Made by a program: the position numbers and the translations under genes
Notes under the pieces: generated by a model
What the model was told of the DNA's origin: nothing
Database searches by the model: none
What the model saw: the letters and a program-made list of their open reading frames with translations, nothing else
Shown: positions 1 to 16,585 of the stretch, in pieces
How the letters are laid out: each line of letters begins with the position of its first letter
Position numbering within the stretch: the stretch's first letter is position 1
NCBI GenBank assembly: GCA_025361385.1
Contig: JANYAJ010000028.1
Coordinates: 1 to 18,031 of the forward strand
Length of the DNA stretch: 18,031 nucleotides
Reading direction: 5' to 3'
Origin: Nitrospira sp.
GTDB lineage: Bacteria; Nitrospirota; Nitrospiria; Nitrospirales; Nitrospiraceae

Positions 1-647
1 GCGAAATGAATATGGGCTTGCAAGCGAAGTTGCTGCGGGTGATTCAGGAACGAGAGGTGGATCGAGTCGGAGGGCGTGAACCGGTTTCCGTCAACATCCG
101 TCTGATTGCGACAACCAATCGTTCGTTGTATCACGAAGTCGAGCAGGGGCGGTTTCGAGAGGATTTGTATTATCGGCTGAATGTCTTCCCCATTACAGTG
201 CCTCCGTTGCGGGAGCGCCCTGCGGACATTCCTTTACTGGTGAGGCATTTCGTGGCCGTCTCGGCGGTGCGCAATGGCCTTCCGCAACCGGCGGTGTCGG
301 CGGCGGCGTATGCCATCCTTCAGGATAGGCGATGGAAAGGGAACGTGCGTGAGTTGGAGAATGTCATGGAGCGTGCTGTGCTCTTAGCCGGAAACGAGCC
401 GATTCTCCCGAGCCATTTATTGGTGGAGGCTGGCGGACAACCGGTATTCTGCGCGCCAGCGCCCTCGGTGCCACAGTCTTCTGTCAACGGATCGTTGTGG
501 GAAATGGAGCGCGAGCTGATATTTCAAACCTTGGCGCGGGTCCATGAGAATCGGACCCATGCGGCGAAAGAACTGGGCATCAGTATTCGAACCTTGCGAA
601 ACAAGCTTCGGGAGTACCGGGGGGCAACGTGCCAAGTCTCGGCTTGA
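1..647 (+). CDS. Sigma-54-dependent transcriptional activator (FlrC/FleR/AtoC-like), C-terminal part, 5' end outside window
   Basis: Enhancer-binding protein that would remodel sigma-54 RNA polymerase using ATP. The frame is open from base 3 and enters just after the Walker B region (GLQAKLLRVIQE). Further along are the sensor I stretch RLIATTN, the arginine-finger region FREDLYYRLNVFPI, the segment VPPLRERPADIPLL, and sensor II, WKGNVRELENVMERAV. The end of the protein is a Fis-type helix-turn-helix (NRTHAAKELGISIRTLRNKL), the DNA-binding part. The Walker A motif, the GAFTGA loop and any receiver domain lie upstream of the window, so I cannot say whether it is an orphan activator or a response regulator. 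It sits directly before a consensus sigma-54 promoter and flagellar genes, so a FlrC/FleR-like role as flagellar master activator is the natural inference. The family call is secure; the exact orthologue is not. Confidence 0.93.
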   Translation, partial: EMNMGLQAKLLRVIQEREVDRVGGREPVSVNIRLIATTNRSLYHEVEQGRFREDLYYRLNVFPITVPPLRERPADIPLLVRHFVAVSAVRNGLPQPAVSAAAYAILQDRRWKGNVRELENVMERAVLLAGNEPILPSHLLVEAGGQPVFCAPAPSVPQSSVNGSLWEMERELIFQTLARVHENRTHAAKELGISIRTLRNKLREYRGATCQVSA

Positions 648-690
648 CCTATCGGTATTGGCGGGAATGGACCGTACCCGGTGGGCAACT

Positions 691-763
691 CCTGCCGATC
701 GGCAGGAAGCGTATTAGACGAAACGATCCGGCAGGCTTTGTCGTTGCAGTCAGACTCTGCCGG
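691..763. promoter_or_regulatory. Candidate activator-binding region (palindrome plus half-sites) upstream of flgB
   Basis: Positions 691-706 read CCTGCCGATCGGCAGG, a perfect 16-bp palindrome. The same half-site returns at 728-734 (CCGGCAG) and inverted at 757-763 (CTGCCGG), so four CTGCCG/CGGCAG half-sites fall within about 72 bp. The palindrome centre is about 98 bp upstream of the predicted start of the sigma-54 transcript, a usual distance for an enhancer site bound by a Fis-type activator. The activator gene ends 44 bp before it. No T-run follows the palindrome, so it does not look like an intrinsic terminator. That it binds the neighbouring activator is inferred. Confidence 0.55.
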
Positions 764-770
764 TTAAAGA

Positions 771-786
771 TGGCATCACGATTGCA
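771..786 (+). promoter_or_regulatory. Sigma-54 promoter (-24/-12) for flgB operon
   Basis: TGGCATCACGATTGCA matches the sigma-54 consensus TGGCAC-N5-TTGCA, with the invariant GG (772-773) and GC (784-785) at the correct spacing. The predicted transcription start is near 797, giving a leader of about 39 nt before flgB. The same TGGCAT-N4-ATTGCA pattern recurs upstream of fliL. A sigma-54 activator gene lies directly upstream. Confidence 0.85.
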
Positions 787-835
787 AGGCTCACGATGAT
801 GTCATCGACTGCAACGAGTGAAGAGGAGGCGGATC

Positions 836-1243
836 ATGAAGATCTTCGATCACACCATGGAAATGGTCCATCGTACCTTGGATTTGCGAGGGGCCAGGCA
901 GCGGGTCATTGCCTCGAATATTGCAAACGAAGAGACCCCCGGCTATCGCGCCACCGATTTTAACTTCCTCGACTCGTTGCAAGCGGCACAGCGTGGTCAA
1001 GGACCTGTGGCATTAGCTGTGACGCAGGGCAAACATTTTAGCCCACATGGGGAGGGGCTTCAGCGGGTCGTCGGGACGCTCAGTGAGGTGCCTGCGGGAG
1101 ATCTTCCCTTGGATGCGAATTCGGTGAACATGGAGCTTGAAATGGCCAAGATGTCCGACAATGCGATGCAGTACAACGGTGCTGCGGCAATCATGGCCAT
1201 CCGCTTTCGTCAGTTGATGGGTGCGGTACGGGACGCGCGATAA
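836..1243 (+). CDS. flgB: Flagellar basal-body proximal rod protein FlgB
   Basis: FlgB is one of the proximal rod subunits that sit on the MS ring in the periplasm. The 135-residue product has the family pattern: RQRVIASNIANEETPGYRATDF near the N-terminus and a C-terminal helix with DANSVNMELEMAKMSDNAMQYN. The length is normal for FlgB. A GTG further upstream (818) is in frame, but AGGAGG at 824-829 lies 6 nt before the ATG at 836, which fixes the start there. It is the first gene after the sigma-54 promoter and is followed by flgC and fliE, the classic flgBC-fliE order. Confidence 0.95.
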   Translation: MKIFDHTMEMVHRTLDLRGARQRVIASNIANEETPGYRATDFNFLDSLQAAQRGQGPVALAVTQGKHFSPHGEGLQRVVGTLSEVPAGDLPLDANSVNMELEMAKMSDNAMQYNGAAAIMAIRFRQLMGAVRDAR

Positions 1244-1263
1244 TTTAAGTCCGAGACATGCGA

Positions 1264-1299
1264 CGAGTGCCACGAGGCAGAGACTAACTCGGCACCTCG
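1264..1299 (+). other. Possible RNA hairpin between flgB and flgC
   Basis: CGAGTGCC at 1264-1271 can pair with GGCACCTCG at 1291-1299, giving an 8-bp stem with one bulged C and a loop of about 19 nt. There is no T-run, so it is unlikely to stop transcription. It could affect mRNA stability or processing, or be chance. The evidence is only visual pairing. Confidence 0.25.
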
Positions 1300-1321
1300 C
1301 CTCTAACCAGGAGGAACGACC

Positions 1322-1771
1322 ATGGAAATGACCGATAGCATGGCGGTGTCCGTCACCGCATTAGATGCACAGCGTCGTCGGCTCAACGTAATCTCCAGTA
1401 ACCTGGCGAATGCACAGTCTACCCACATGCCAGGGGGAGGGCCCTACAAACGTCGGGATGTGGTCTTCCAGTCCACGCCAGTCACCAGTCCATTTCAGCG
1501 TACGTTCCGGCAGGTGTCGACGGGGCCTGGAGCCCACGCACTTGATGGCGTCAAGGTGTTGCGGGTGCGGGAGGATTCGAAGCCTGGACAGGCGATTTAC
1601 GATCCGCGCCATCCGGATGCCGATAAGAAAGGGTTCGTCAAGATGCCGAATGTGAATGTCATGGAAGAAATGGTGAACATGATCGGTGCATCGCGTTCGT
1701 ATGAAGCGAACGTGCAGGCGATTAATGCCACTCGTGCCATGATGAATAAGGCTCTGGATATCGGGAGGTAG
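1322..1771 (+). CDS. flgC: Flagellar basal-body rod protein FlgC
   Basis: FlgC is a proximal rod subunit of the periplasmic drive shaft. The 149-residue product shows the rod/hook family N-terminal motif (RRRLNVISSNLANAQST). It also has the FlgC-specific middle and C-terminal block: YDPRHPDADKKGFV, then MPNVNVMEEMVNMIGASRSYEANVQAINATRAMMNKALDI. The length is slightly above the common ~135-145 residues. AGGAGG at 1309-1314 lies 7 nt before the ATG and supports the start. It follows flgB after 78 nt and precedes fliE by 2 nt. Confidence 0.96.
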   Translation: MEMTDSMAVSVTALDAQRRRLNVISSNLANAQSTHMPGGGPYKRRDVVFQSTPVTSPFQRTFRQVSTGPGAHALDGVKVLRVREDSKPGQAIYDPRHPDADKKGFVKMPNVNVMEEMVNMIGASRSYEANVQAINATRAMMNKALDIGR

Positions 1772-1773
1772 TT

Positions 1774-2079
1774 ATGGATCAGATCAAGCCGATTGCGATT
1801 CCGACACCGTCATTTGGAGAACTGGGCACGGCGTCTCAGGGCTCAGGTGGCACCCCTGCCACTGGATTTATGGATACGTTGCAGCATGCGATCAGTAAGG
1901 CCAACGATATTCAGCTGCAAGCCAGCCAGGCCACAGATGCATTGATGACCGGCCAGTCTCAGAATGTACATGGGACGATGGTGGCGTTACAGGAGGCGGA
2001 TATCTCCTTCCAGCTGATGATGCAGATCCGGAACAAGCTGGTGTCGGCCTATGACGAAATTCAACGGATGCAGATGTAA
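1774..2079 (+). CDS. fliE: Flagellar hook-basal body complex protein FliE
   Basis: FliE joins the FliF MS ring and the export gate to the proximal rod and is among the first substrates exported. The product is 101 residues, the normal size. The C-terminal half carries the family signature: a helix with ATDALMTGQSQNVHGTMVALQEADISFQLMMQIRNKL and a short tail YDEIQRMQM. The start codon follows the flgC stop by 2 nt. Its ribosome-binding site, GGGAGG, lies inside the end of flgC, so the two are probably co-translated. Confidence 0.95.
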   Translation: MDQIKPIAIPTPSFGELGTASQGSGGTPATGFMDTLQHAISKANDIQLQASQATDALMTGQSQNVHGTMVALQEADISFQLMMQIRNKLVSAYDEIQRMQM

Positions 2080-2111
2080 GCCAGTTGTTGCGTAGCGAGG
2101 AGTAGGGTCCT

Positions 2112-3671
2112 ATGTTGTCAAAGTTTTCCATCAATCAACGCTTGATCATTCTGGTCGCGCTCGCCGGCTCGATCGCCGGATTGATTGCCGTGACCCTCTG
2201 GACGCAACAACCAGACATGCAGGTGTTATTTACCAACCTCAACCCTGAGGATGCATCGGGGATTGTGGATAAACTGAAAGAAACGAAGGTGCCGTACGAG
2301 ACGACCGGTGGGGGCACGACCATCTTGGTTCCTAGCGCGCAAGTGCATGAATTGCGGTTGCAGTTGGCCTCCCAGGGGCTCCCGCATGGGGGCGGTGTAG
2401 GATTTGAAATTTTCGATCGTTCGTCGATCGGGATGTCGGATTTCGTGCAAAAACTCAATTATCGGCGCGCACTGCAAGGCGAATTGGCTCGAACCATTGC
2501 CCAAATGCCGGAGATCGAACGGGCCCGCGTGCATCTCGCGACCCCGGAACGGCGGCTCTTTGGAACCGAGGAAAACCGTGCACGCGCGTCGATCGTGGTG
2601 TCGTTGCGGAACGGACAGGCTCTTGCCAAGACTCAAGTCAACGGCATCGTCCACCTTGTGGCGAGCAGCGTTGAGGGGCTCCAAGTGAAAGATGTGACCG
2701 TGGTGGATGGCCATGGACGGCTCCTCTCGTCGGCAGCCGGGAGCGATGACGCGGCAGGGCTCACTGGGTCGCAATTGGAATACCAGCGGACGGTGGAGAA
2801 GGATATTGAGACCCGTATCCAATCGATGTTGGAGCGGATCGTCGGACAGAATAAAGCGGTCGTGCGCGTCTCGGGTATCCTCGACTTCCGCAAAATCGAA
2901 ACGACGGAAGAGCGGTACGATCCGAACGGTCAAGTCGTGCGGAGTGAACAGCGAGGACAGGAGAAATCGAATGGCGTCAATGGCGTATCCGGTGGCGTCC
3001 CTGGCGTCCAATCGAATGTGCCGCCCGGGACCGACCAAGAGCCGCCTCAGACCAGTTCGACCAGCAATCAGACCAAAAATGAGACGGTGAACTACGAAAT
3101 CAGCCGGACTGTGTCCCGTATCGTGGAATCCAGCGGCAGCATTAAACAACTCTCTGTGGCGGTGCTCGTGGATGGCATCTATGAAGGGGCCAAGGCCTCT
3201 GCAGACGGAAAGCCTGCAGCCGATCAGGCCAAAAAGTATGTTGCACGGTCTGAAGAAGACATGAAGCGCATTGAGGAGATCGTGAAAAAAGCGATGGGCT
3301 ATTCCGCGGAACGTCAGGATCAAGTCCAGGTCACGAATGTCCAGTTCGACATTGCGACTGAAGAGCCGTCCACTCAGGGTGTCGAGGCCGCGGCCGATGT
3401 GACGAATCCCTTCTTGCCCTATCTTCGGTATGGGGTCGGCGGGCTGCTCTTTCTCCTGATTCTGTTCATGGTCGTGCGCCCGTTGTTGGGCATGTTGGGA
3501 TCGACGGGGACCGCATTGGAGCAGAGCGCCACCGCGTCATTGCCCGCCTCGGTCAGTCAGGTGGAAGCGGCCTTGGAGGGGAAACCGCGCTCACAACTCA
3601 TCGATATGGCACGCAGCAATCCTGAAGCGACGGCTGTCATCGTGAAACAATGGTTGAAGACCGATCAGTAA
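2112..3671 (+). CDS. fliF: Flagellar MS-ring protein FliF
   Basis: FliF forms the membrane and supramembrane ring on which the rod, export gate and C-ring are built. The 519-residue product has a first membrane helix at about residues 11-29. Ring-building domains of the YscJ/FliF family follow (DFVQKLNYRRALQGELARTI, RARVHLATPERRLF, VNGIVHLVASSVEGL). The periplasmic segment at about 275-330 is rich in Gly, Ser, Thr and Asn. A second membrane helix lies at about 440-460, after NPFLPYLRYGVGG. The cytoplasmic tail ends with SNPEATAVIVKQWLKTD, which matches the FliG-binding peptide at FliF C-termini. The length is a little short but complete. GAGGAG at 2097-2102 supports the ATG. Confidence 0.97.
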   Translation: MLSKFSINQRLIILVALAGSIAGLIAVTLWTQQPDMQVLFTNLNPEDASGIVDKLKETKVPYETTGGGTTILVPSAQVHELRLQLASQGLPHGGGVGFEIFDRSSIGMSDFVQKLNYRRALQGELARTIAQMPEIERARVHLATPERRLFGTEENRARASIVVSLRNGQALAKTQVNGIVHLVASSVEGLQVKDVTVVDGHGRLLSSAAGSDDAAGLTGSQLEYQRTVEKDIETRIQSMLERIVGQNKAVVRVSGILDFRKIETTEERYDPNGQVVRSEQRGQEKSNGVNGVSGGVPGVQSNVPPGTDQEPPQTSSTSNQTKNETVNYEISRTVSRIVESSGSIKQLSVAVLVDGIYEGAKASADGKPAADQAKKYVARSEEDMKRIEEIVKKAMGYSAERQDQVQVTNVQFDIATEEPSTQGVEAAADVTNPFLPYLRYGVGGLLFLLILFMVVRPLLGMLGSTGTALEQSATASLPASVSQVEAALEGKPRSQLIDMARSNPEATAVIVKQWLKTDQ

Positions 3672-3686
3672 AGAGGAATTGCTGCA

Positions 3687-4679
3687 ATGGCGACGCAATT
3701 AACCGGTGAAAAGAAAGCGGCGATTCTCCTGCGAGCGATCGGTGAAGATGCGGCGGCGCTGGTGATGAAGAGTCTCGACCCCAAGGAAATCAGAAAATTG
3801 GGCACGTTCATGAACGATACCGCCAATATCTCGAAGGAAGAAGAGCAGAGCGTGATGGGGGATTTTGAGAAAGCCAGCGCGACCGGCGAAGTCTCATTTC
3901 AGGGAAAAGACTACATCAAAACCATTCTCACCAAGGCACTCGGTCCTGAAAAAGCGGCCCGTTTGCTTGAATCCATGAATAGCCGCGTCTATCCGGGGCT
4001 CGATGCATTGAAGTGGGTGGATGCCAAGGCCGTGTCGCAAATGCTCAAGATTGAGCACCCACAAACCATTTCCCTCATCATGGCCCATATGGAGCCAGAG
4101 CAGGCTGGGCAGGTGCTCACTGGCTTACCTGCCGAACTGCGGGCGGATGTGGCCCATCGGTTGGCCACGATGGAGGAAGTGCAGCCGGATGTGCTCGAGG
4201 AACTCAGCGGTGCCCTCCAAGACCTTTTGATTGCCAATTCTGGTGTCCAATCCTTGACCGTCGGGGGATCCAAGGTGATCGCGGATATTCTCACTCGGGT
4301 GGATAAAGCGACCGAGGGCGGCATTATGGCCAAGATTGCCGAGCGGAACCAGACCCTGGCCGATGCCATCCGCGCCTTGATGTTCGTGTTCGACGATTTG
4401 ATCAAACTCGACGATCGCGGGATGCAAGAGCTGATGAAAGAAGTCAGCAAGGAAGATCTGCCTGTCGCGCTCCGTGGGGCCAGTCCGGACGTGAAGGAGA
4501 AGTTCCTGAAGAACATGTCGAGCCGCGCGTCAGAAATGTTGAAAGATGATATGGAGGCTCGAGGACCGGCGAAGGTGGCGGATGTGGAGCGGGCACAACA
4601 GAATATCCTAAAAGTTTGCCGGAAGTTGGAAGAAGAAGGCCGCATTGTGATTTCAGGCGCTGGGGAGGCGCTGGTATAA
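3687..4679 (+). CDS. fliG: Flagellar motor switch protein FliG
   Basis: FliG is the C-ring subunit that binds FliF and meets the stator, so it generates torque. The 330-residue product is full length. The N-terminal domain begins TGEKKAAILLRAIGEDAAALV. The middle domain carries the EHPQ motif at residues 123-126 (FliM-binding face). The C-terminal domain has the charged torque helix MFVFDDLIKLDDRGMQELMKEV at about 232-253, followed by DLPVALRGASPDVKEKFLKNMS. The gene follows fliF by 15 nt and its stop is directly abutted by the next start codon. Confidence 0.97.
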   Translation: MATQLTGEKKAAILLRAIGEDAAALVMKSLDPKEIRKLGTFMNDTANISKEEEQSVMGDFEKASATGEVSFQGKDYIKTILTKALGPEKAARLLESMNSRVYPGLDALKWVDAKAVSQMLKIEHPQTISLIMAHMEPEQAGQVLTGLPAELRADVAHRLATMEEVQPDVLEELSGALQDLLIANSGVQSLTVGGSKVIADILTRVDKATEGGIMAKIAERNQTLADAIRALMFVFDDLIKLDDRGMQELMKEVSKEDLPVALRGASPDVKEKFLKNMSSRASEMLKDDMEARGPAKVADVERAQQNILKVCRKLEEEGRIVISGAGEALV

Positions 4680-5729
4680 ATGGCGAGTCCTCTGAGTATG
4701 GAATCTACCCTGTCGCAGCCTGCACCACGCGCCACCTGGCAGCGTGACACCTCCATCTTGATCGTCGACGATGAGTTCTCGATCCAGAAGGTACTGACCG
4801 TATTATTAGAATCAGATGGGTACCGCGTCCGTGCGGTTGGGTCGGCGCGGGAAGCTCTCGCAGCGCTCAAGATCGCACCGGCTTCGTTGATGATCACCGA
4901 CATTAAATTGCCTGACCAGGATGGTCTGTCCATGCTCCAGCAGGCCTCCAAGATCGATCCACGCATGATCGGGGTGGTGATGACGGGATATGCCACGGTC
5001 GATCTTGCCGTTCAAGCGATGAAGGCCGGTGCGACAGAGTTTCTGATGAAGCCCTTCGAGTGCGACATGGTGCTCCTGACGGTCAAACGACTCCTCGAGC
5101 TCTATCGCCTGCGAGTAGAAAATGCCGTCTTGAAACAGGCGGTCGTGCGTGAGGGCGGCGTGCGGTTGGAAAATCCGTCACTGATCGATTTCGGGACCGG
5201 CCATCAGTTCGTCACGACCAGCGGCCCGTCCGACTATGACCGGGGGATTGCCGAAGGCGAACGTCGAGCCGCGGTGCGGGACGATGCCACGCAGCGGCGT
5301 GAGCAGACGCTGTTCGCCAATGCCGTGCAGCAGTTGGAGGAAGTTTGGCGGTCGTTCGGCAGCACGATGGAGTCCGATGTCACCGCCGTGGCCTTCAGTT
5401 TAGCGACACGGATCTTACGGGACACGATCGCCGAGCATCAGGATGTCATGAGGGCGCAGTTGAAAGCCGCCTTGGCGACAATTCGTGAATCAGGCGTGGT
5501 GACGGTCCGTACCCACCCTTCCGATGTGTCAGTCCTTGAAGCGGCGCGGCCGGAGCTGAGCCGCGATCGAGAGACGGCATTGGTGCTGCACATTGAAGGC
5601 GATGCCTCGCTCTCGCGGGGCAGTTGTGTGGTGGCCACGACGAACCGATTGGTCGATGCCTCCCTGGACGCGCAGCTACTGCGGCTCGGAGAGGTATTAC
5701 AGAAACGGGGGCGTGGTGGATCTCGCTGA
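4680..5729 (+). CDS. fliH: Fusion protein: CheY/NtrC-type receiver domain joined to flagellar export regulator FliH
   Basis: This single 349-residue frame occupies the fliH position. Residues ~24-126 form a complete response-regulator receiver: acidic pair D30-D31, phosphoacceptor D74 in MITDIKLPDQDG, T102 in MTGYAT, and K124 in FLMKPF. An NtrC-like exit helix follows (LELYRLRVENAVLKQAV, about 139-155). After a linker (~157-185), the FliH part starts with YDRGIAEGERRAA, a remnant of the Gly-rich FliH helix. It ends with the family C-terminus: VRTHPSDV (276-283), LSRGSCVVATT and DASLDAQLLRL (326-336). FliH normally binds the ATPase FliI and docks it at the export gate and C-ring; no other fliH lies between fliG and fliI. 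The DNA-binding and AAA+ parts of NtrC proteins are absent. The ATG abuts the fliG stop, with GGGGAGG just upstream. Both domain calls are strong; control of export by phosphorylation is inferred. Confidence 0.9.
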   Translation: MASPLSMESTLSQPAPRATWQRDTSILIVDDEFSIQKVLTVLLESDGYRVRAVGSAREALAALKIAPASLMITDIKLPDQDGLSMLQQASKIDPRMIGVVMTGYATVDLAVQAMKAGATEFLMKPFECDMVLLTVKRLLELYRLRVENAVLKQAVVREGGVRLENPSLIDFGTGHQFVTTSGPSDYDRGIAEGERRAAVRDDATQRREQTLFANAVQQLEEVWRSFGSTMESDVTAVAFSLATRILRDTIAEHQDVMRAQLKAALATIRESGVVTVRTHPSDVSVLEAARPELSRDRETALVLHIEGDASLSRGSCVVATTNRLVDASLDAQLLRLGEVLQKRGRGGSR

Positions 5730-7023
5730 ACTGATTGAACGGACAGACCCGCTCGCCGTCTCCGGTCGTGTGGCCCAGGCGGTCGGGATTGTGATCGAGG
5801 GTTATGGTCCCATGACCTCGGTGGGCGAACTCTGCGAGGTCACTCGCGAGGACGGAGAAGGGACCGTACTCGCCGAGGTCGTCGGATTTCGCGGCGACCG
5901 TGTTTTGCTGATGCCGCTTGGGGAGATGCGGGGGATCGGTCCGGGGAGCCGGCTGTTGATGAAAGGGCATTGTGCGTCGGTACCGGTTGGCCCGCAACTG
6001 CTCGGTCGGGTGCTGGATGGGCTTGGCGAACCACTCGATGGAAAGGGTCCATTGGTGACGGAGCGCCAATATCCGCTCCATGCGGCGCCGCTCAACCCGC
6101 TCCAGCGCGCGCGCATTACAAAACCGCTCGATCTCGGCGTCCGGGCGATCAATGCCTGCTTGACGTGCGGTTTGGGTCAAAAGATCGGGATCTTTGCCAG
6201 TGCAGGTGTGGGCAAGAGTGTGTTGCTCGGCATGATGAGCCGCTACACCAGAGCCGACGTGAATGTGATTGCCCTGATCGGTGAGCGAGGCAGAGAGGTG
6301 AACGAATTTCTCGAACGGGACCTCACACCGGCCGCACTTCAACGATCGGTCGTCATTGTGGCCACGTCGGATCAGCCTCCGCTGGTGCGGCTGCGGGGTG
6401 CATTGATCGCGACGGCGATTGCGGAATATTTTCGTGATTGCGGAAAGCAGGTCCTGTTAATGATGGATTCGCTGACCCGCTTGGCCCATAGCCAGCGTGA
6501 AGTGGGGCTCGCCATCGGCGAACCGCCGACCACAAAGGGGTATACGCCGTCGGTCTTTACGTTTCTTCCAAAGCTCCTGGAGCGAGTCGGGACCGGGCCA
6601 GGGGCCGGCACGATCACCGGACTCTATACAGTGCTGATGGACGGCGACGAGGTCTCCGACCCTATCGCCGAAACCGTGCGATCGATTCTCGATGGACATA
6701 TCGTGCTCTCACGGCAGATGGCCGCGCGCAACCATTTTCCGGCGATCGATCTGCTGAACAGCACGAGCCGGGTGATGAAAGACATCGTGGGACGGGAGCA
6801 TTATTCGGCTGCCCGGTCCATGGTCGAGCTCATGGCCCGCTACCAGCAATCGGAAGATCTCATTCTGTTGGGTGCCTATAAGGCGGGGACGAACAAGGCG
6901 CTGGACCGGGCCGTATCCGCACAAGATGGGATCAATGCCTTTCTTCGTCAGGAGATCGAACAACCGGCCGATCTTGGGGCATCGGTTCAGGATTTACTCG
7001 CGCTGGTGAAGAGCACCGCATGA
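5713..7023 (+). CDS. fliI: Flagellum-specific ATPase FliI
   Basis: FliI is the hexameric ATPase of the flagellar type III export apparatus, related to F1 beta. It has a Walker A loop in SAGVGKSVLLGM (Lys about residue 168 from this start) and the Walker B strand VLLMMDSLTRLAHSQREV. It also has the type III ATPase signature GEPPTTKGYTPSVFTFLPKL and, near the end, YQQSEDLILLGAYKAGTN. The frame is open back to an ATG at 5593, but that part is anti-family and overlaps fliH. The FliI-like sequence starts at VDLAELIERTDPL, so GTG at 5713 or 5716 is the likely start, with GGGGG just before and about 14-17 nt overlap with fliH. The product is about 436 residues, normal for FliI. The stop overlaps the fliJ start (ATGA). 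Confidence 0.95.
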   Translation: MVDLAELIERTDPLAVSGRVAQAVGIVIEGYGPMTSVGELCEVTREDGEGTVLAEVVGFRGDRVLLMPLGEMRGIGPGSRLLMKGHCASVPVGPQLLGRVLDGLGEPLDGKGPLVTERQYPLHAAPLNPLQRARITKPLDLGVRAINACLTCGLGQKIGIFASAGVGKSVLLGMMSRYTRADVNVIALIGERGREVNEFLERDLTPAALQRSVVIVATSDQPPLVRLRGALIATAIAEYFRDCGKQVLLMMDSLTRLAHSQREVGLAIGEPPTTKGYTPSVFTFLPKLLERVGTGPGAGTITGLYTVLMDGDEVSDPIAETVRSILDGHIVLSRQMAARNHFPAIDLLNSTSRVMKDIVGREHYSAARSMVELMARYQQSEDLILLGAYKAGTNKALDRAVSAQDGINAFLRQEIEQPADLGASVQDLLALVKSTA

Positions 7024-7460
7024 AACTGGATGCGGTACGACGGTATCGTGCACAAGTGGAAGACCTGTTGCGTATGGACCTGCTTCACGCCCGCCAGAAT
7101 CTTCAGGATGCTGAAGCCGCCTCTCAGGCCCTCGACGCACAGGCGCGGATGACGGCTGAGCGGTATGTAGCCAAGGCCAGTAGCGGGATGGCATTGGAGG
7201 AGTTTCTCGAATGGCAGATCACTTGTGACGCGGAAGCCGCCTTGCTCACGCAAGCCTGGCAGGCTGAATGTCGGTGCCGTGAAGCATGGCATCAGAAGCA
7301 GCAAGAGTTGCAGGCTGCGATGCAGGAGCGTCGGACACTCGACCGTCTGGCTGAACGGCTGCGCCAGCAGCAGCGAGTGATCCAGTATCGTGCCGAGCAA
7401 CTGCAAATGGATGAATCCGCGCGCCGTATGAGTGGGATGCCTAGCTTGCAGAATTCATGA
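7020..7460 (+). CDS. fliJ: Flagellar export protein FliJ
   Basis: FliJ is the small coiled-coil stalk of the export ATPase, comparable to the gamma subunit of F1, and carries chaperone-escort functions. The product is 146 residues, almost entirely predicted helix rich in Gln, Arg, Ala and Glu, with heptad-like spacing (RMDLLHARQNLQDAEAASQALDA and ERRTLDRLAERLRQQQRVI). Sequence identity in this family is low, so the call rests on length, coiled-coil character and position directly after fliI. Its ATG overlaps the fliI stop by ATGA, and its own stop overlaps the next start by ATGA, indicating coupled translation. Confidence 0.88.
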   Translation: MKLDAVRRYRAQVEDLLRMDLLHARQNLQDAEAASQALDAQARMTAERYVAKASSGMALEEFLEWQITCDAEAALLTQAWQAECRCREAWHQKQQELQAAMQERRTLDRLAERLRQQQRVIQYRAEQLQMDESARRMSGMPSLQNS

Positions 7461-8227
7461 TGAGCAAATACCGGATAGACCAGCAACGAGACCGGATTAC
7501 GCTTTCACGCACTCATGCGGAAAGACCTCGTCGTCCTCGCATGGGGTGGGAGAGGCAGATCTGGTCTGTCGCGATCATGCTGGCGGTGATCATGGTGTTG
7601 TGCTGGACGGTGGTGCAGCTCAACGATGCCTCGTCCGCTCCCGCGACTGCTCCTCCTGCCACCCGCAAGGCACTTCTCAAGGCTGGCATCTTCAAAGATC
7701 TTCCCGCCGAGTTGATGCCGCCGGAAGAGACCAAGGCCGCGGCGGCTGAATCCTCATCGGTGGAGGCGGCACAAACGCAGGGCCCCGCGATCAATATGCC
7801 GGAGGAAGTGGTGGCGATGTTTCAACAGCGGCAAGATGATTTGGACCACCGTGAGAAAACGGTTCGGACATCGGAGGATCGACTGGCGAATCTCAGAGCT
7901 GAAATTGAGCAGATCTTGAGCAAAGTTGAGGCAGCAGAACAGCGCCGCCTCCGCGCGAAGGAACAACAAGAAAAGGCGGCTGCAGGGCAGAGCGCCGTGC
8001 AGAAGAAACAAGCGGCCGACGAGCACACCCAGCGCTACGCACAGCTGACGAAGATCTATGAAAGTATGCCTGCCGAGGAAGCCGCCGCACGTATTGAAAA
8101 GATGCCGGATCGAAAGGCCTTGGAGATTCTCCGGTTGGTGAAAGGCAAGACTGCCGGATCGATCCTCGCACAGGTTAAAGTGGACCGCGCCGCAAAACTC
8201 ACCGAACAATTGCTCTCCAATCCCTGA
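7457..8227 (+). CDS. MotE-like membrane protein with MgtE N-terminal-type domain
   Basis: The product has 256 residues. A basic cytoplasmic N-terminus (RPRRPRMGWERQ) precedes one membrane helix at about residues 35-54. A Pro/Ala/Glu-rich stretch is followed by a long coiled coil at about 118-190 (DDLDHREKTVRTSEDRLANLRAEIEQIL onward). The C-terminal ~60 residues (YAQLTKIYESMPAEEAAARIEKMPDRKALEILRLV) resemble the MgtE N-terminal domain. This architecture is common for proteins placed after fliJ. The best-known relative, MotE of Sinorhizobium, is a periplasmic chaperone of the motility protein MotC; others are annotated only as flagellar or magnesium-transporter-like. A role with the stator or with FliG (which shares helical repeats with MgtE_N) is possible but inferred. 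The start is ATG 7457 or the adjacent ATG 7460. Confidence 0.8.
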   Translation: MMSKYRIDQQRDRITLSRTHAERPRRPRMGWERQIWSVAIMLAVIMVLCWTVVQLNDASSAPATAPPATRKALLKAGIFKDLPAELMPPEETKAAAAESSSVEAAQTQGPAINMPEEVVAMFQQRQDDLDHREKTVRTSEDRLANLRAEIEQILSKVEAAEQRRLRAKEQQEKAAAGQSAVQKKQAADEHTQRYAQLTKIYESMPAEEAAARIEKMPDRKALEILRLVKGKTAGSILAQVKVDRAAKLTEQLLSNP

Positions 8228-8427
8228 CCGGTTCCTGTCTTCTGTGTTCTCTCGGTATTCTTTACCCCATCATCCGGCATCTTTTTCCTCAGCCGTGTTT
8301 CTTGCCGCATCGATTGCCTGAAACTGCACGCCAATTGAGAGATGTCTTGCCATTCGGTCTGGCATGAGCCTTGAAAGATCCACAATCGACAATGTGCCTC
8401 CATTACCCATAAGGACAACGAGGACCT
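8228..8427 (+). promoter_or_regulatory. 200-nt intergenic region with sigma-54-like site (8360-8375) before fliK
   Basis: This gap splits the ATPase block from the hook block. Positions 8360-8375 read TGGCATGAGCCTTGAA. The -24 half is the same TGGCAT as in the two strong promoters, but the -12 GC is GA, so it is a weaker candidate. The predicted start would be near 8386, about 42 nt before fliK. CGGCA at 8275-8279 and TGCCG at 8303-8307 weakly echo the half-sites upstream of flgB. I see no convincing terminator after the motE-like gene, so read-through is possible. Confidence 0.4.
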
Positions 8428-10263
8428 ATGGCCTTTCAACAACTCAGCCCACAGATCGGCCTCGCACCGGCGAGCGGACACCTCCAGCCATTTGCCGCTG
8501 GAAACTCGGTTGGTGCGGCTTCTCGCGAGAGGGGATTCTCTTCGGTCTTACAGGCCGCCTCGCAGCGGGTCGAAGCCAGGAAGGACGCGAAGTCGCGTGT
8601 CGCTCAATCGAAGACCGAGGATCGTACGGCCACGACAGCTTCGGAGGGGAAGCGGGTCCAGTCACGGAGGAGCGACGGGAGCCGAGGAACAAAACATCGA
8701 GACTCTCAGTCAGAGAATGACAACCGGACCACAAGTACGACGTCCTCGGTGAATCGACGTCTGTCGCATAAGACGAGTGATGGCAGGGAATCAGACCATT
8801 CTCCTCAATCCGAGACTCCTGACCAACCTTCCCCCACGACCTCCAACATTTCCCCCGCCCAGGTCCAAGGGAGCTCCTCCGGCCCCGACACAGATTCTCA
8901 CGCCTCACAGTCTGAGACCAGTGAGGATACACCCTTGATCACGTCAGCTACCGACCCGCTGGTGATCTCCCTCTCCGGCACGACGGTGGCCACGCCGACA
9001 TCCCCGGTGGATCCCCGCAAGCCTATTGTTGCTTCCGGCACATCGACGAATGACGTTGACGGGCCATCTAGCTTATCGGCATCGACGATGATCCAACCGG
9101 TCACGCCATCTGTTGAAGGGGTTGGGAAACCAATCGTTTCAGCGAACAAGCTTGAGGATCTTGCCAATCAACATACGACTTCCGCCGCAGGGGATTCGGT
9201 TGCTACGGTACCTCTCCCCACGGGTGAGCAGACATCAGATACCGCAAAAATCGCTTCAGATATCGGGGGTGCTGCACAACCTGATAAGGGGGTGCCGCTT
9301 ACAGCCTTGCAGGGCCAGCAGATTGAGAATGTGGATCCCCATCAGGGTGTTCCCATCAAGGACCACCAGGAGCAGGGGGTGGCACCGGCTCCGGCTCCAT
9401 CCGCGCCGGTTGTTGTCCAGGGGCAAGAACCGGCCGAGCAGGTGGCCACGACGGCGACACAGTCGACTCTCCAGCATCAGGAAGAGGTTTCGGCAAAATT
9501 AGATCAGGCGCCGGTGCAGCAGATGCTGGGGAAGGGAGAGCTCTCACTTCATCAGAAGCATCTACAGGTACCAACACCGGCGTCTGAGGCTCAAGCAAAT
9601 GCGGCAGTATCAAGCCAGATTCAGGATGAGGGACAGGGCCTCAATTCGGGATCGGGCAGTAAGGGAAAGGACGATGGCTTGAAGTGGTTGTCTCATGTCG
9701 ACCTTCAATCGGCAGAGATGCCGTCTCGCACACCGGAACCATCAACGGTTGAGTCAGGCGACGGAGGCCACCAGTATTCGTCTTATCAACAGGGCCAAGG
9801 AGGTACTCCGCCGAATATTCGTCCTGCGTCGGCATCCTCTATTCCCGTGCCACTTCAGGCTAACCAGTTGAGCCCCGATCCTGAGCCGACGACTGTTCCA
9901 CGGACACAGGCCGTGCAGTTCGACATGTCTCCTGCCGACTTCGGTCAGCTTCGTGTCCGTGTCGTCTTGTCCGACCACACGATTCATACACACCTGTCGA
10001 CCGATCGTGCCGAACTCGGTCAGATGCTCACCGGGCAGCAGGAGCAATTGAGCACCCAGTTGACTGCAGCCGGATTGGATATGGGGAGGTTCCAGGTTCA
10101 AGTCGATCAAGAGCGCAGTCGCCAGTCTGGACAAGATGGGCAATCACAGGCCCATAGCGGCACCACGCCACAACAGCGAGATCCACAGCAGCAGGACCGG
10201 TTGCCTCATGATGCATCGGTCCCTCCGCAGAAGCGCACCGGCGTACTCAGCCTGTTTGCCTAA
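8428..10263 (+). CDS. fliK: Flagellar hook-length control protein FliK
   Basis: FliK is an exported molecular ruler that, when the hook reaches length, makes FlhB switch export to filament-type substrates. The 611-residue product is long for FliK (~400-450 in enterics). The first ~480 residues are low-complexity, rich in Ser, Thr, Gln, Pro and Asp (for example HASQSETSEDTPLITS), as expected for an unfolded ruler. At about 495-570 lies the globular C-terminal domain, with the family pattern FDMSPADFGQLRVRVVLSD, then TDRAELGQMLTGQQEQLSTQL and LDMGRFQVQV. A Gln-rich tail follows. The start is supported by GAGGA 3 nt before the ATG. It is followed by flgD and flgE, the standard hook block. Confidence 0.93.
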   Translation: MAFQQLSPQIGLAPASGHLQPFAAGNSVGAASRERGFSSVLQAASQRVEARKDAKSRVAQSKTEDRTATTASEGKRVQSRRSDGSRGTKHRDSQSENDNRTTSTTSSVNRRLSHKTSDGRESDHSPQSETPDQPSPTTSNISPAQVQGSSSGPDTDSHASQSETSEDTPLITSATDPLVISLSGTTVATPTSPVDPRKPIVASGTSTNDVDGPSSLSASTMIQPVTPSVEGVGKPIVSANKLEDLANQHTTSAAGDSVATVPLPTGEQTSDTAKIASDIGGAAQPDKGVPLTALQGQQIENVDPHQGVPIKDHQEQGVAPAPAPSAPVVVQGQEPAEQVATTATQSTLQHQEEVSAKLDQAPVQQMLGKGELSLHQKHLQVPTPASEAQANAAVSSQIQDEGQGLNSGSGSKGKDDGLKWLSHVDLQSAEMPSRTPEPSTVESGDGGHQYSSYQQGQGGTPPNIRPASASSIPVPLQANQLSPDPEPTTVPRTQAVQFDMSPADFGQLRVRVVLSDHTIHTHLSTDRAELGQMLTGQQEQLSTQLTAAGLDMGRFQVQVDQERSRQSGQDGQSQAHSGTTPQQRDPQQQDRLPHDASVPPQKRTGVLSLFA

Positions 10264-10286
10264 CGAAAGATCGAAGGAGACGCACT

Positions 10287-10952
10287 ATGGCCACGGTCAA
10301 CGCAGCAACATCCTCAACCATCGCATCCGCGGCCGCACCCGCGCCGGTATCGCTGAAACAGCCCGATCTTGGGAAAAATGACTTTCTCAATCTGTTGGTG
10401 GCACAGCTGAAGAATCAAGACCCATTGAAGCCGATGGACAGTTCGTCGTTTGTGGCGGAACTGGCTCAGTTCAGCCAACTGGAACAGAGCTCCAATCAAT
10501 CGGCGCTGCTTGGCAAGGTCCTCGACGCGCAGAACTCGAGTCTGCAGTATTCGTTATTGCCGCTGGTCGGACGAGACGTGAGCATTCAGGGCGCGGTCAT
10601 TCAATTGGGCACCACGCCGACCACGCTTGATTACAGTCTCAGTAAGGATGCTGCAGCGGTCAGTCTGTCTATTATGAATGCGTCGAACCAGGTCATTCGC
10701 ACGGGAACGCTCGGGCCGCAGGGCGCCGGCGCGCAAAAAGTAGAGTGGGATGGGCAAGATCAGAACGGCACGATGATGCCGCCAGGGACCTATACCTACG
10801 CGATTGCGGCACAGGATGCGCAGAAACAAGCGGTACCCGTGACAACGACCTCGCGGTTGACGGTGTCCGGCATCCGGGTGGAGGACGGCCAGCCGAAGCT
10901 GGCCGCGGGCGATACCACCATCGATCCAAGCGCTGTCGTCGAGTTTCGCTGA
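10287..10952 (+). CDS. flgD: Flagellar hook assembly (cap) protein FlgD
   Basis: FlgD caps the growing hook and guides FlgE polymerisation. The 221-residue product has the conserved N-terminal block GKNDFLNLLVAQLKNQDPLKPMDSSSFVAELAQFSQLEQ at about 29-67. It is followed by the FlgD Ig-like/tudor-type core with VEWDGQDQNGTMMPPGTYTY near 150-170, the FlgD Ig motif. The length is normal. AAGGAG at 10273-10278 lies 8 nt before the ATG. It follows fliK after 23 nt. Confidence 0.96.
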   Translation: MATVNAATSSTIASAAAPAPVSLKQPDLGKNDFLNLLVAQLKNQDPLKPMDSSSFVAELAQFSQLEQSSNQSALLGKVLDAQNSSLQYSLLPLVGRDVSIQGAVIQLGTTPTTLDYSLSKDAAAVSLSIMNASNQVIRTGTLGPQGAGAQKVEWDGQDQNGTMMPPGTYTYAIAAQDAQKQAVPVTTTSRLTVSGIRVEDGQPKLAAGDTTIDPSAVVEFR

Positions 10953-11012
10953 GAGGGTTGAGATAAACCAACGTCATGTATTGTCACAGAGTTCATAAGG
11001 AGGGAATAAACC

Positions 11013-12749
11013 ATGGGTCTTTTGTCCTCGTTGTTCGCAGGTGTCAGCGGTCTCAACGCCAACGCGACTGCCTTGTCGGTGATCGGCAACAATATCGCCA
11101 ACATGCAAACGGTTGGTTTTAAGTCCAGCAAGGCGACGTTTGCCGATCTGATCAGCTCCTCGATATCGGGCGGATCCGGTTCCGTCCAGACCGGTATCGG
11201 CGTCGCGCTGACGTCGGTGCAAGGCAACTTCTCACAGGGGTCCTTGGCCACCTCGTCTAACGTCCTCGATATGGCGATTGACGGCAACGGCTTCTTCATT
11301 GTGCAGGATGCCCAGGGAGGCACCTTTTACAGTCGAGCGGGGACGTTCCGGCTGGATAAAGACAACAACGTCGTCGATCCCAGTGGATTCAAATTGCAGG
11401 GATTCCTTGCGGACACGACCGGGACAATTACTGGATCGATTGGCGACGTAGCCCTTCCCTCTACCACGGCCTCGCCGAAAGACACAAATTTAGCGTTTCT
11501 GGCTGCGAACTTGAACTCCGCCGCGCCGATCACGGGCGTTCGAGGGAATGTCGTCGGCGCCGCGACATCTGCCACGACGAGTGCTGCTGGCAACCTCTCA
11601 TTCAATATCAATCTGAATGGCGACGGCGCCCAGGTCGTGACGGTGGCTGCCGGTTTGACGGGTGCAAGCCTCGCCACCGCCATTCAGAATGCCGTGCGGG
11701 CTCTGACTCCCGCGGATCCGTTTCGCACAGCCGCTTATACAGGCTTTACCGCTGGAGTCAACGCGGCAGGATTCTTCACCTTCACCTCCGGCCTCGCCGG
11801 GGTGACCAATAACACGACCGCCGGCACTGGAGCGGTCGTCGTCACGGCCAACGGCGCCGACACCTTGGGGGCGAACCTCAATATGGTAGCAGGGACGTCC
11901 ACGACGGGCACGAACTTCAATATTGCCAATCCGACGAGCACTTCGAATTTCTCGACGTCGATGACCGTCTACGATTCGCTTGGAAACAGCCACCTCCTTA
12001 CGACCTATTTTACCAAGGCCGGAAGTAATACCTGGAACTATAATGTGACGGCGAATAGTAATGACGTGGTGACGGCCAACTATAACACCGCCAACATCGA
12101 TGCCACGCTCGGCATCACCAGGGTCGGAGCTGGGACACTCACGTTCGGAACCGATGGTACGCTGGACCGTGAAAGTGTGGCCCTCCGGTTTGATACCGGA
12201 ACGGCTGCCGGCGCAGTCGGGACGGTGCCGGGGCAACTGCAAGTCGATTTCAACGGGGCGACGGCCGATCAGTTGATTACCTACAACTATGGCACTAGTG
12301 TCACAACGGAAGGTGGCAACGGATTGGACGGCACGACCCAGTTCGGCTCGCAATCCGCGGTGGTGCAGCTGACGCAAGACGGTTATGCGGCCGGTTCACT
12401 CCAGGCGTTTTCGGTCGATGGGAACGGGGTCATCAATGGACGGTTTTCCAACGGCCAGTTGCGGGCGCTGGCCCAAGTAGTTTTGGCGCGCTTTCCTGAC
12501 CCGCTTGGTTTGACTCGAACCGGAAACAATACCTTTGCGGAGTCCGGAAACTCAGGGCAACCTGTGACGGGAGTCCCGGAGAGCGCGGGATTGGGCAAAT
12601 TAAAGTCCAATACGTTGGAACTGTCCAATGTCGATTTGGGTGAAAGTTTTATCGACATGATCGCCGCTCAACGTGGGTTCCAGGCCAACTCTCGCGTCAT
12701 CACGACATCCGACGAAATTCTCCAAGAACTCGTCAATCTCAAGCGGTAG
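11013..12749 (+). CDS. flgE: Flagellar hook protein FlgE (enlarged)
   Basis: FlgE is the major hook subunit. The N-terminus (MGLLSSLFAGVSGLNANATALSVIGNNIANMQTVGFKSS) and C-terminus (LELSNVDLGESFIDMIAAQRGFQANSRVITTSDEILQELVNLKR) are the conserved helices of hook and rod proteins. DMAIDGNGFFIV at about 85-97 and FSTSMTVYDSLGNSHLLTTYFTK near 310-330 are typical FlgE landmarks. At 578 residues it is much longer than the enteric ~400. The extra length is mainly at about 190-292, Ala/Thr/Gly-rich, and looks like an added surface domain. The ribosome-binding site TAAGGAGGG near 10996-11004 is the strongest in the window and fits an abundant product. Confidence 0.96.
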   Translation: MGLLSSLFAGVSGLNANATALSVIGNNIANMQTVGFKSSKATFADLISSSISGGSGSVQTGIGVALTSVQGNFSQGSLATSSNVLDMAIDGNGFFIVQDAQGGTFYSRAGTFRLDKDNNVVDPSGFKLQGFLADTTGTITGSIGDVALPSTTASPKDTNLAFLAANLNSAAPITGVRGNVVGAATSATTSAAGNLSFNINLNGDGAQVVTVAAGLTGASLATAIQNAVRALTPADPFRTAAYTGFTAGVNAAGFFTFTSGLAGVTNNTTAGTGAVVVTANGADTLGANLNMVAGTSTTGTNFNIANPTSTSNFSTSMTVYDSLGNSHLLTTYFTKAGSNTWNYNVTANSNDVVTANYNTANIDATLGITRVGAGTLTFGTDGTLDRESVALRFDTGTAAGAVGTVPGQLQVDFNGATADQLITYNYGTSVTTEGGNGLDGTTQFGSQSAVVQLTQDGYAAGSLQAFSVDGNGVINGRFSNGQLRALAQVVLARFPDPLGLTRTGNNTFAESGNSGQPVTGVPESAGLGKLKSNTLELSNVDLGESFIDMIAAQRGFQANSRVITTSDEILQELVNLKR

Positions 12750-12757
12750 TCCGCTGT

Positions 12758-12818
12758 GGTGGGTGGGGCATACGCCGTCGTGCGTGTGACCCACCTCACG
12801 GGAGCCATTCTTTCTCCC
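12758..12818 (+). terminator. Hairpins after flgE, possible transcript end or processing site
   Basis: GGTGGGT at 12758-12764 pairs with ACCCACC at 12789-12795. Inside it, CATACG (12769-12774) pairs with CGTGTG (12783-12788) with one G-T pair. The result is a ~13-bp stem with a GGGG bulge. A smaller hairpin, GGGAG (12800-12804) with CTCCC (12814-12818), follows. There is no long T-run, so a classic intrinsic terminator is not proven. The position, 9 nt after the flgE stop and before a new promoter, favours a transcript 3' end or an RNase-blocking structure. Confidence 0.4.
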
Positions 12819-13003
12819 AGGAGCCGATACCCTCGTCATCGATCTGTTTCTTAACTGGCCTTCCCTGTCAGAATTTTGACATCGTCAATCGACTGGCGTC
12901 CCGTCCTCTCCCCCTCAGTGTGTCATCTCCTCCGTTACGACAAATCTACTCATCTGGCGCGAGGTTCCTTGTACGAGGCGCGTTGAATTGAGCGATTCTC
13001 TTG
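12819..13003 (+). other. Non-coding stretch between flgE hairpins and fliL promoter
   Basis: No plausible gene is visible in this stretch. The one item of note is TTGACATCGTCAA at 12876-12888, an inverted repeat of 5-bp arms with a 3-bp spacer. It lies about 148 bp upstream of the predicted fliL transcript start and could be an operator. The CTGCCG half-sites seen before flgB are not present here. GCCGATAC at 12823-12830 resembles a sigma-28 -10 box but lacks a matching -35. Confidence 0.35.
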
Positions 13004-13019
13004 TGGCATACGCATTGCA
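13004..13019 (+). promoter_or_regulatory. Sigma-54 promoter (-24/-12) for fliL operon
   Basis: TGGCATACGCATTGCA has the invariant GG (13005-13006) and GC (13017-13018) at sigma-54 spacing. It is identical to the flgB promoter at all twelve outer positions (TGGCAT-N4-ATTGCA). The predicted transcript start near 13030 leaves a leader of about 31 nt with a strong AGGAGG before fliL. It implies that fliL to flhB form their own transcription unit. Confidence 0.86.
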
Positions 13020-13060
13020 AACTCCCTGTTCCTGTCACCGTTGGACTAGAGGAGGATCTT

Positions 13061-13624
13061 ATGTCAGATGCAGCAGCCGCTGAAGATGGGAAGGCCCCGG
13101 CAGCAGTCTCCGCCGGGATCTCCATGAAAATGGTCATCATCATTGTTGTCGGGACTCTCTTGCTGGGCATCGGAGCGGCCTTCGCAATTTTCAAGATGAC
13201 CTCTGGAGGGCATGGGGGCGACGAGGCGAAAACAGAGGCGAGCGAGCCGAAAACCAGCGAATCGAAAGCCGAGAGTCACGGCGAGAGCGGGCATAAAGGA
13301 GAGGGGAAAGCCGGCGTGGCCAAGGGCATTATGTTTGATGTGGACCCCTTCATCGTCAACTTGGCCGATACACAAGATGTGAAGTACTTGAAGCTGACGG
13401 TGAAGCTGGAGATGGACAATCAGGAGGGAGCGGATGCCTTGACCGAACGCATGCCACAGGTACGCGATACGATTCTCGTGCTGCTGACCAGCAAAGAATC
13501 TTCGTCGATCCGCACGACTCAGGGGAAATTCCAGCTGCGCGATGAAATTACCCAGCGGGTCAACAGTCTGCTTCCCAAACCGGCCGTCCATACGGTGTAT
13601 TTCACTGATTTCGTCGTGCAATAG
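13061..13624 (+). CDS. fliL: Flagellar basal body-associated protein FliL
   Basis: FliL is an inner-membrane protein with a periplasmic stomatin-like domain that surrounds or stabilises the stator units. The 187-residue product has a short cytoplasmic N-terminus, one membrane helix at about 23-44 (MVIIIVVGTLLLGIGAAFAIF), and a charged Gly/Glu/Ser/Lys linker (~48-85). The FliL domain then runs from FDVDPFIVNLAD through YLKLTVKLEMD and MPQVRDTILVLLTSK to VYFTDFVVQ. The frame extends upstream to 13001, but that part contains the sigma-54 promoter. AGGAGG at 13050-13055 sets the start at ATG 13061. It is first in the fliL-M-N-O-P-Q-R-flhB run. Confidence 0.93.
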   Translation: MSDAAAAEDGKAPAAVSAGISMKMVIIIVVGTLLLGIGAAFAIFKMTSGGHGGDEAKTEASEPKTSESKAESHGESGHKGEGKAGVAKGIMFDVDPFIVNLADTQDVKYLKLTVKLEMDNQEGADALTERMPQVRDTILVLLTSKESSSIRTTQGKFQLRDEITQRVNSLLPKPAVHTVYFTDFVVQ

Positions 13625-13645
13625 CCAGAAGGACGATCCTGATCT

Positions 13646-14620
13646 ATGGAAAAAATCCTCTCCCAGGACGAAATCGATGCACTCCTGAATGGAGTCGGTT
13701 CCGGCGCCGTCGAATCCAAATCGCCGGAGGAGCCGGCTGCCGCATCGGGGGCCAAACAGTTCGATCTGTTCAATCAAGAGCGGATCATTCGTGGGCGGAT
13801 GCCGACGCTCGAGTTGATCAACGATCGTTTCATTCGTCGGCAAACGATTTCGTGGGGGGCGGCGCTCCATGACACGATTGAATTCGCCGTCGTCGGCACA
13901 CAGATCACCAAGTTCGGCGAATTCCTCAAGAAGGTGCCGATGCCGTCCTCGATGAACGTCTTTCATATGGAGCCGCTTCGCAGTAACGGGCTTTTTGTGA
14001 TGGACGCCTTTCTGGTCTATCTGATTGTCGATTACTTTTTCGGAGGTAAAGGGCAGACGCACGTCAAGCCGGAAGGTCGCGATTTTACTCCGATCCAATT
14101 GCGCGTCATCAAAAAACTGGTCCAGCAATCCTTCCTCGATCTCGAGAAAGCCTGGGAGGCGCTGATGACGGTCAAGATCCAGCATGTGCGCTCGGAAAGT
14201 AATCCCCAGTTTGCCATGGTGGTCTCCGCTTCCGAGATCGTGGCTGTAGTGACGCTGCAAGTGGTGATCGGCGAAACCGCCCGCGATATGTTTATCGTCT
14301 ATCCCTATTCCATGCTCGAACCCATCAAAGAAAAACTCTACTCAGGACTGGTGTCCGATCATGTTGAGCAAGACGGCGGGTGGACAGGCCGGTTTCGGGA
14401 GAGATTGCAAGAATGCGAGCTCAATGTCGTCGTCAGGCTCGGGACCGCCTCCGTCAAGGTGCAAGACGTGCTCAACTTTACGGCGGGAGATGTCATCGTC
14501 TTGGATCAACGGCCGGGCGATCCCCTGGATTGTTATGTCGAGGGATATCTTAAATTTCAAGGAAGCCCCGGTGTATTCAAGGGGAACCATGCCTGTCGTG
14601 TATCGAAAGTGATTGCGTAA
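13646..14620 (+). CDS. fliM: Flagellar motor switch protein FliM
   Basis: FliM is the C-ring subunit that receives phospho-CheY and reverses the motor. The 324-residue product starts MEKILSQDEIDALLNGV, containing the conserved EIDALL peptide that binds phospho-CheY. The middle CheC-like domain follows (RGRMPTLELINDRFIRR, then NVFHMEPLRSNGLFVMDAFLVYLIVDYFFGG), including the FliG-contacting region. The C-terminal SpoA domain ends at YLKFQGSPGVFKGNHACRVSKVI. The length is normal. The ribosome-binding site AGAAGGA is rather far (about 13 nt) from the ATG. Confidence 0.97.
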   Translation: MEKILSQDEIDALLNGVGSGAVESKSPEEPAAASGAKQFDLFNQERIIRGRMPTLELINDRFIRRQTISWGAALHDTIEFAVVGTQITKFGEFLKKVPMPSSMNVFHMEPLRSNGLFVMDAFLVYLIVDYFFGGKGQTHVKPEGRDFTPIQLRVIKKLVQQSFLDLEKAWEALMTVKIQHVRSESNPQFAMVVSASEIVAVVTLQVVIGETARDMFIVYPYSMLEPIKEKLYSGLVSDHVEQDGGWTGRFRERLQECELNVVVRLGTASVKVQDVLNFTAGDVIVLDQRPGDPLDCYVEGYLKFQGSPGVFKGNHACRVSKVIA

Positions 14621-14649
14621 GCGAGCCCTGTTGCTGAGGAGAACGATCT

Positions 14650-15006: not shown

Positions 15007-15028
15007 GACAAGGGGAGACGGAGACGGC

Positions 15029-16288: not shown

Positions 16289-16296
16289 AGGCATTC

Positions 16297-16566: not shown

Positions 16567-16585
16567 CGCCGTCATCGAGAAAGCC

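Follow-up and report, generated by a model that had tools for sequence, protein, structure and literature searches.

A two-component receiver domain joined to FliH in the flagellar export locus of Nitrospira and most of its family

Introduction

In a stretch of 18,031 nucleotides from Nitrospira sp. (assembly GCA_025361385.1, contig JANYAJ010000028.1, positions 1 to 18,031 of the forward strand; hereafter the window), the gene at the fliH position encodes a protein that begins with the receiver domain of a two-component response regulator. The locus raises the question of whether such a protein is the cell's FliH, whether its receiver is still a working receiver, and what a receiver might do at that end of the export apparatus. 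An earlier note on this DNA had proposed that phosphorylation by a flagellar histidine kinase may tune export or its timing. The flagellar checkpoints FlgSR, FlrBC and FleSR act on transcription (PMC7064773), and the parts of PMC7064773 and of the review PMC7911332 used here mention no switch that acts by covalent phosphorylation of the export ATPase complex.

Results

The gene at 4680..5729 is one uninterrupted frame encoding 349 residues (this gene, its parts, fliG, fliI and the activator fragment at 6..647 lie on the forward strand). Its ATG stands immediately 3' of the stop codon of fliG (3687..4679, assigned by Pfam), and its end is overlapped by the gene of the export ATPase, fliI (5713..7023), whose probable start is a GTG at 5713 or 5716; the gene order around the fusion is fliG-FliH-fliI-fliJ. 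Between fliJ and fliK lies a gene (7457-8227) with a weak MgtE_N match of 22.6 bits, below the cut-off of 25.9, and its product resembles MotE-type proteins. In a Pfam scan of the 349-residue protein, Response_reg matched residues 26-130 (4755..5069) with 82 bits against a cut-off of 30.2, and the FliH domain matched residues 209-334 with 56.8 bits against a curated cut-off of 24.1. The scan returned these two domains only, without the AAA+ and HTH parts that usually follow such a receiver, as the earlier note had observed. All five active-site residues read by that note are present at the correct receiver positions: the acid pair D30 and D31 (4767..4772, placed by a receiver alignment over 78 fusions), the predicted phospho-acceptor Asp74 (4899..4901), T102 and K124. 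The best alignments of the receiver were to receivers of the NtrC/DctD type and extended along the exit helix as far as residue 156, bearing out the NtrC-like helix described earlier.

Structure prediction gave a confidently modelled receiver fold (10-residue pLDDT means of 82-96), which runs into a continuous, extended alpha5 exit helix of the NtrC/DctD kind (residues 128-157, 5061..5150; model and conservation). This helix is predicted to form a dimer coil. A poorly conserved linker (residues 158-184, 5151..5231), with pLDDT below 50 at residues 161-172 and 174-181, leads to the FliH fold, composed of a long helix (residues 185-252, 5232..5435) that begins with a GxxxG-type motif, GIAEG, and a C-terminal alpha/beta domain (5436..5717) with the fold of 5b0o FliH and of V-ATPase stalk subunit E. 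The best Foldseek match of the FliH half modelled alone was 5b0o, the FliH of a FliH-FliI complex (E 1.8e-5), which together with the Pfam match upholds the FliH C-terminal half recognized in the earlier note. A search of solved structures with the sequence of this half found nothing at E 1, and the link to 5b0o comes from the fold search alone; the fold match list of the full model was filled by receivers. The genome of the window (82% complete, 562 contigs) contained one FliH match, the fusion itself, and the 87 genomes of the family with a match had exactly one each, so that the second fliH named earlier as a counter-case did not turn up. The best explanation is that the fusion gene encodes the cell's FliH, the peripheral-stalk partner of the export ATPase FliI, the pairing with FliI being predicted.

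The earlier note had called for a survey of related genomes for the same fusion. Among 395 genomes drawn from the phylum, 218 had a FliH match, including the 87 in the family of the window. We read 81 family loci, consisting of 77 of these 87 genomes (the window included) and four more members of the genus, G030, G009, G010 and G022. Receiver and FliH occurred in one frame in 78 of the 81 loci, and FliH occurred alone in three, which belong to genera g4 and g6. Ten of the 87 genomes fall outside this sequence-level count: G120, G126, G202, G218, G236, G287, G289, G357 and G407, in which the locus position was missing or at a contig end, and G027, which has a full-length match to the fusion at 95%. 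Within the genus, 22 of 32 genomes had a FliH match, and in the same 22 the match covered almost all of the fusion, with truncation at 301 residues in one. The other ten genomes of the genus gave no FliH match, several of them being 98-99% complete, which suggests that flagella were lost repeatedly within the genus. One genome, G018, had no FliH but a match (E 1.2e-31) of the flagellar-regulator-receiver kind.

The fusion recurred in other assemblies from 95% down to about 35% identity, and its close matches were named Nitrospira sp., Nitrospira lenta and Nitrospirota bacterium. Among the best 120 of 148 matches and another 32 matches, every two-domain protein with a named organism came from Nitrospira, Nitrospirota or Nitrospiraceae. 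The 19 FliH loci that we fetched from elsewhere in the phylum, outside the family, all lacked a receiver in the FliH frame. In one group outside the phylum (198 genomes, 111 with FliH), none of 12 frames of at least 321 residues matched the receiver model; in L145-L149 of these 12 the frame exceeds the fetched stretch, where a receiver behind FliH would be missed, and L145 also gave no match to the FliH model. The frames of L145-L149 (the group of G413) are 538-563 residues long, with an early MASDxLRKKWGT stretch and no receiver in the part read. At L043 (3012-3941), FliH carries about ten AKGFAEGE-type GxxxG repeats ahead of the FliH domain.

The single frame in 78 of 81 loci argues against two readings that would deny the fusion any joint function or existence. 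The genome of the window is fragmentary, and a sequencing or assembly error could have merged two genes; the fusion is also found in several single-contig genomes, such as G086, G138, G268 and G271, and this counter-case of the earlier note is left with practically no likelihood. Alternatively, the receiver and FliH might be made or used separately, through an internal start or cleavage. In-frame start-like codons do occur in the linker, the commonest at residue 166 (ATG, GTG or TTG in 38 of 78 fusions); however, GTG and TTG double as ordinary Val and Leu codons, and between residues 135 and 215 no position is start-like in more than 40 of the 78. A consistent internal translation start was rejected, there being no such codon across the 78 fusions, and we consider separate proteins very improbable.

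In a tree of FliG and FliI from 42 loci, all seven fused genera formed one clade with a support of 100. The unfused g4 and g6 were sister to this clade (family node 71), and the unfused neighbouring family lay outside; L029 (G030), which matches the L005 locus, was omitted. Since the three unfused loci are sister to all fused genera, the fusion probably arose once.

We used the receiver alone as a query in 11 genomes. In the fused genomes G008, G155, G268, G214, G040 and G329, the best non-fusion match was located 10-11 kb upstream, in a frame of 474-532 residues, and the best receiver match of the unfused G091, G170 and G164 was at the same place, in frames of 486-501 residues. For G271 the best non-fusion match was elsewhere, and for the fragmentary genome of the window it was on another contig. 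Pfam identified the upstream copy of G008 (locus L028) as a receiver-AAA-HTH sigma54 regulator, and the remaining upstream matches are taken to be such regulators too, from their length, place and position in the tree. In a tree of 31 receivers, eight fusions formed one clade (94) that grouped with one such regulator (83), and a clade of all fusions and these regulators, with those of the neighbouring family excluded, had a support of 53. The nearest relatives of the receiver are mostly receivers of a flagellar sigma54-type regulator, from which it likely derives.

A candidate phosphate donor is known from one related genome, G008. Just upstream of the flagellar operons, its locus L028 encodes a PAS-HisKA-HATPase kinase (L028 9540-10844) together with two receiver-AAA-HTH regulators, one of which stands beside the PAS kinase at the place that corresponds to window 6..647. 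In the window this place holds the 3' part of a sigma54 activator (AAA+ part, lid and Fis HTH) at the contig end; because the contig (C91) starts inside the activator, an upstream kinase gene, if there is one, lies outside this contig. On the Kyte-Doolittle scale the L028 kinase does not exceed 1.5 in any 19-residue stretch, and it is probably soluble. The gene of a 720-residue TPR protein (L028 7373-9535) separates the PAS kinase gene from that of the first sigma54 regulator.

The MS ring, rotor and export gate are required by the kinases FlrB and FleS, and FlgS makes direct contact with the MS ring-rotor-export complex; the kinases studied in that source have no need of FliM or FliN, and FliH is unmentioned in its main text (PMC7064773). 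Given that flagellar kinases are active at this complex, a receiver on FliH would sit beside such a kinase. This location and the kinship of the receiver also bear on a reversed flow of signal, in which the FliH receiver would be a phosphate sink or competitor, and a docked export ATPase would lower phosphorylation of the flagellar sigma54 regulators and thereby report assembly to transcription. The donor may be shared, since the nearest receivers are mostly from the flagellar sigma54-type regulator, and FliH visits the complex at which the kinases are activated (PMC7064773). However, the origin from the regulator has modest support in the receiver tree, as its clade (94), grouping (83) and wider clade (53) indicate, and we regard this second rival as improbable.

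The active site was compared over the 78 fusions. D74 and K124 were each present in all 78, as were T or S at 102 and an acid (D or E) at position 30, and Gly directly followed T102 in 77. The metal-binding D31 was kept in 67 fusions, which have the complete five-residue set (65 D-D-D-T-K and two E-D-D-T-K). It was lost in 11 (nine Ala, one Gly, one His; L015, L017, L023 and L077 among them), with D, T/S and K retained. The earlier note had counted loss of receiver residues in relatives against its proposal; such loss occurs at D31 and not at D74, K124 or T/S102. The nine fusions with Ala at 31 were mutual nearest neighbours by identity, G228 (His) was nearest to two, and G155 (Gly) stood apart, an apparent drift to pseudo-receivers that took place mostly in one group of close relatives. 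A pseudo-receiver is defined in the part of PMC12632262 used here by the absence of at least one of the five active-site residues, and by this definition 67 fusions are true receivers and 11 are pseudo-receivers, the window protein not being one of the latter.

In three close pairs, dN/dS of the receiver ranged from 0.066 to 0.101 and that of the FliH half from 0.079 to 0.095; both halves are under purifying selection. Over the 78 fusions conservation was strongest in alpha4 (0.59 bits), and the exit helix (1.04) was more conserved than the linker (1.78). We also set eight fusions against eight-member draws from a pool of 23 other NtrC-type receivers, which gave 0.61 versus 0.91 for alpha4 and 0.64 versus 1.59 for the exit helix, the values of the pool being raised by its span of several families. 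Other NtrC-type receivers conserve alpha4 as well, which counts against the switch mechanism proposed below. By these measures the receiver looks functional, with phosphorylation predicted. Since 11 of the 78 fusions have lost the metal-binding acid, phosphorylation is probably dispensable in some members.

The FliH N-terminus that binds FliN and FlhA is reportedly that of Salmonella. The first residues of FliH bind FliN and its N-terminal region binds FlhA (review PMC7911332), and by analogy the N-terminal motif of the unfused relatives may have the same docking role. Most unfused FliH proteins fetched from the phylum start with [WL]SK[VI]xK, followed by YxL. We built a motif profile from 18 chosen of 22 unfused N-termini, after setting aside f14, f12, f7g31 and f23, which on visual inspection were long or showed no motif. 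In a left-out test, 16 of the 18 scored at least 8 bits; the failures were f19 and g6, and g6 is one of the closest unfused relatives of the fusions. The motif was not detected in the 78 fusion linkers (mean -1.8 bits, maximum 3.6), the controls being 390 shuffles (mean -2.3, maximum 7.5) and 25 NtrC linkers (mean -0.7). The highest score among 127 fusion N-termini was 2.8 bits. MAFFT had aligned linker residues of about 150-171 to the motif; its retention in the linker was rejected, as the scores were no better than those of shuffles or NtrC linkers. The receiver occupies the place of the relatives' N-terminal end, presumably the docking end. An altered partner surface on FliN was likewise rejected: fused and unfused family members are the same in the C-terminal part of FliN, and its VVVV stretch, which we take to be the FliH-binding patch, is identical in both and gives no sign of a changed partner.

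The main rival to a phosphorylation switch starts from a possible replacement of that end. The receiver could be a docking module that binds the C-ring or FlhA constitutively, independent of phosphorylation, with the pocket kept for fold or dimer. The undetected motif in fusion linkers and N-termini would fit such a module, as would the retention of the domain in the 11 fusions without D31, and phosphorylated CheY is a receiver that binds the C-ring (PMC7911332). However, the motif may have faded before the fusion, since g6 also fails the motif test, and the invariance of D74, K124 and T/S102, together with the Gly after T102, is like that of working receivers and unlike that of pseudo-receivers (PMC12632262, in the part used). 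We rate phosphorylation-independent docking as rather unlikely, if less so than the phosphate sink.

Discussion

We favor, with a probability of about 0.5, a reading in which a phosphorylation-responsive receiver at the docking end of FliH tunes the recruitment of FliI and probably takes its phosphate from a flagellar kinase. The donor, a flagellar histidine kinase and most probably one of the soluble PAS/HisKA type seen in the L028 cluster, would phosphorylate D74. The alpha4-beta5 face and the exit-helix coil would then change the pairing of the receivers, which would alter docking of the FliH dimer (FliH2) at the C-ring/FlhA and set the amount of FliI recruited or activated. This would tie export to the assembly checkpoint that governs flagellar transcription as well. 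The architecture, the single inferred origin, the conservation of catalytic residues, the purifying selection and the undetected motif come from sequence, and the steps from phosphorylation onward we infer. A rigid-lever mechanism is weakened by the low-confidence linker (161-181) that separates the exit helix from the FliH helix. More tentatively, a single kinase could serve both transcription and export, the assembly-checkpoint kinase directly switching the export ATPase complex between docked and undocked states. The interpretation in the earlier note is partly upheld: the fusion is real, fliH has one match, the phosphorylation residues are conserved, and the L028 cluster offers a plausible kinase. 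The D31 missing in 11 of 78 weighs partly against it.

The fusion protein shares with FliH/SctL the Pfam FliH domain, the FliH/V-ATPase subunit E-like fold, the gene order and the single match per genome, and differs in its N-terminal receiver and exit helix (residues 1-157) and in the undetected motif of its relatives. It has the receiver subfamily and exit helix of NtrC/FlrC/FleR-type regulators without their AAA+ ATPase and Fis-type HTH, FliH being the output part. PorX, a regulator of the type 9 secretion system whose receiver was among the fold matches, is also a receiver-bearing protein that serves a secretion machine, but its second domain is not known as an ATPase stalk, and PorX is not known to belong to a flagellar export complex. 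CheY at the C-ring is likewise a receiver acting at the flagellar base, and a structure of CheY with a FliM peptide was among the top fold matches; CheY is a free-standing protein with control of rotation as its role, whereas the fusion receiver is NtrC-type and a covalent part of the export stalk.

In the open-licence PMC literature, no description of a receiver-FliH protein was found among the titles and abstract starts of the matches listed. In sequence databases such proteins already appear under labels like FixJ family two-component response regulator or flagellar assembly protein FliH. Both families are known; their combination, and its presence across most of a bacterial family, appear to be undescribed in the literature covered.

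The conserved FliH receiver at 78 of 81 loci makes the idea of a phosphorylation switch directly testable. If the proposed switch is true, two-component signalling would gain a stalk protein of a rotary-type ATPase as an output. If the docking end of FliH is truly replaced, that end can be rebuilt as a signalling domain, and the replacement would be a natural experiment on FliH docking, phosphorylated or not. In these bacteria, flagellum assembly may be switched directly by phosphorylation, beyond gene expression.
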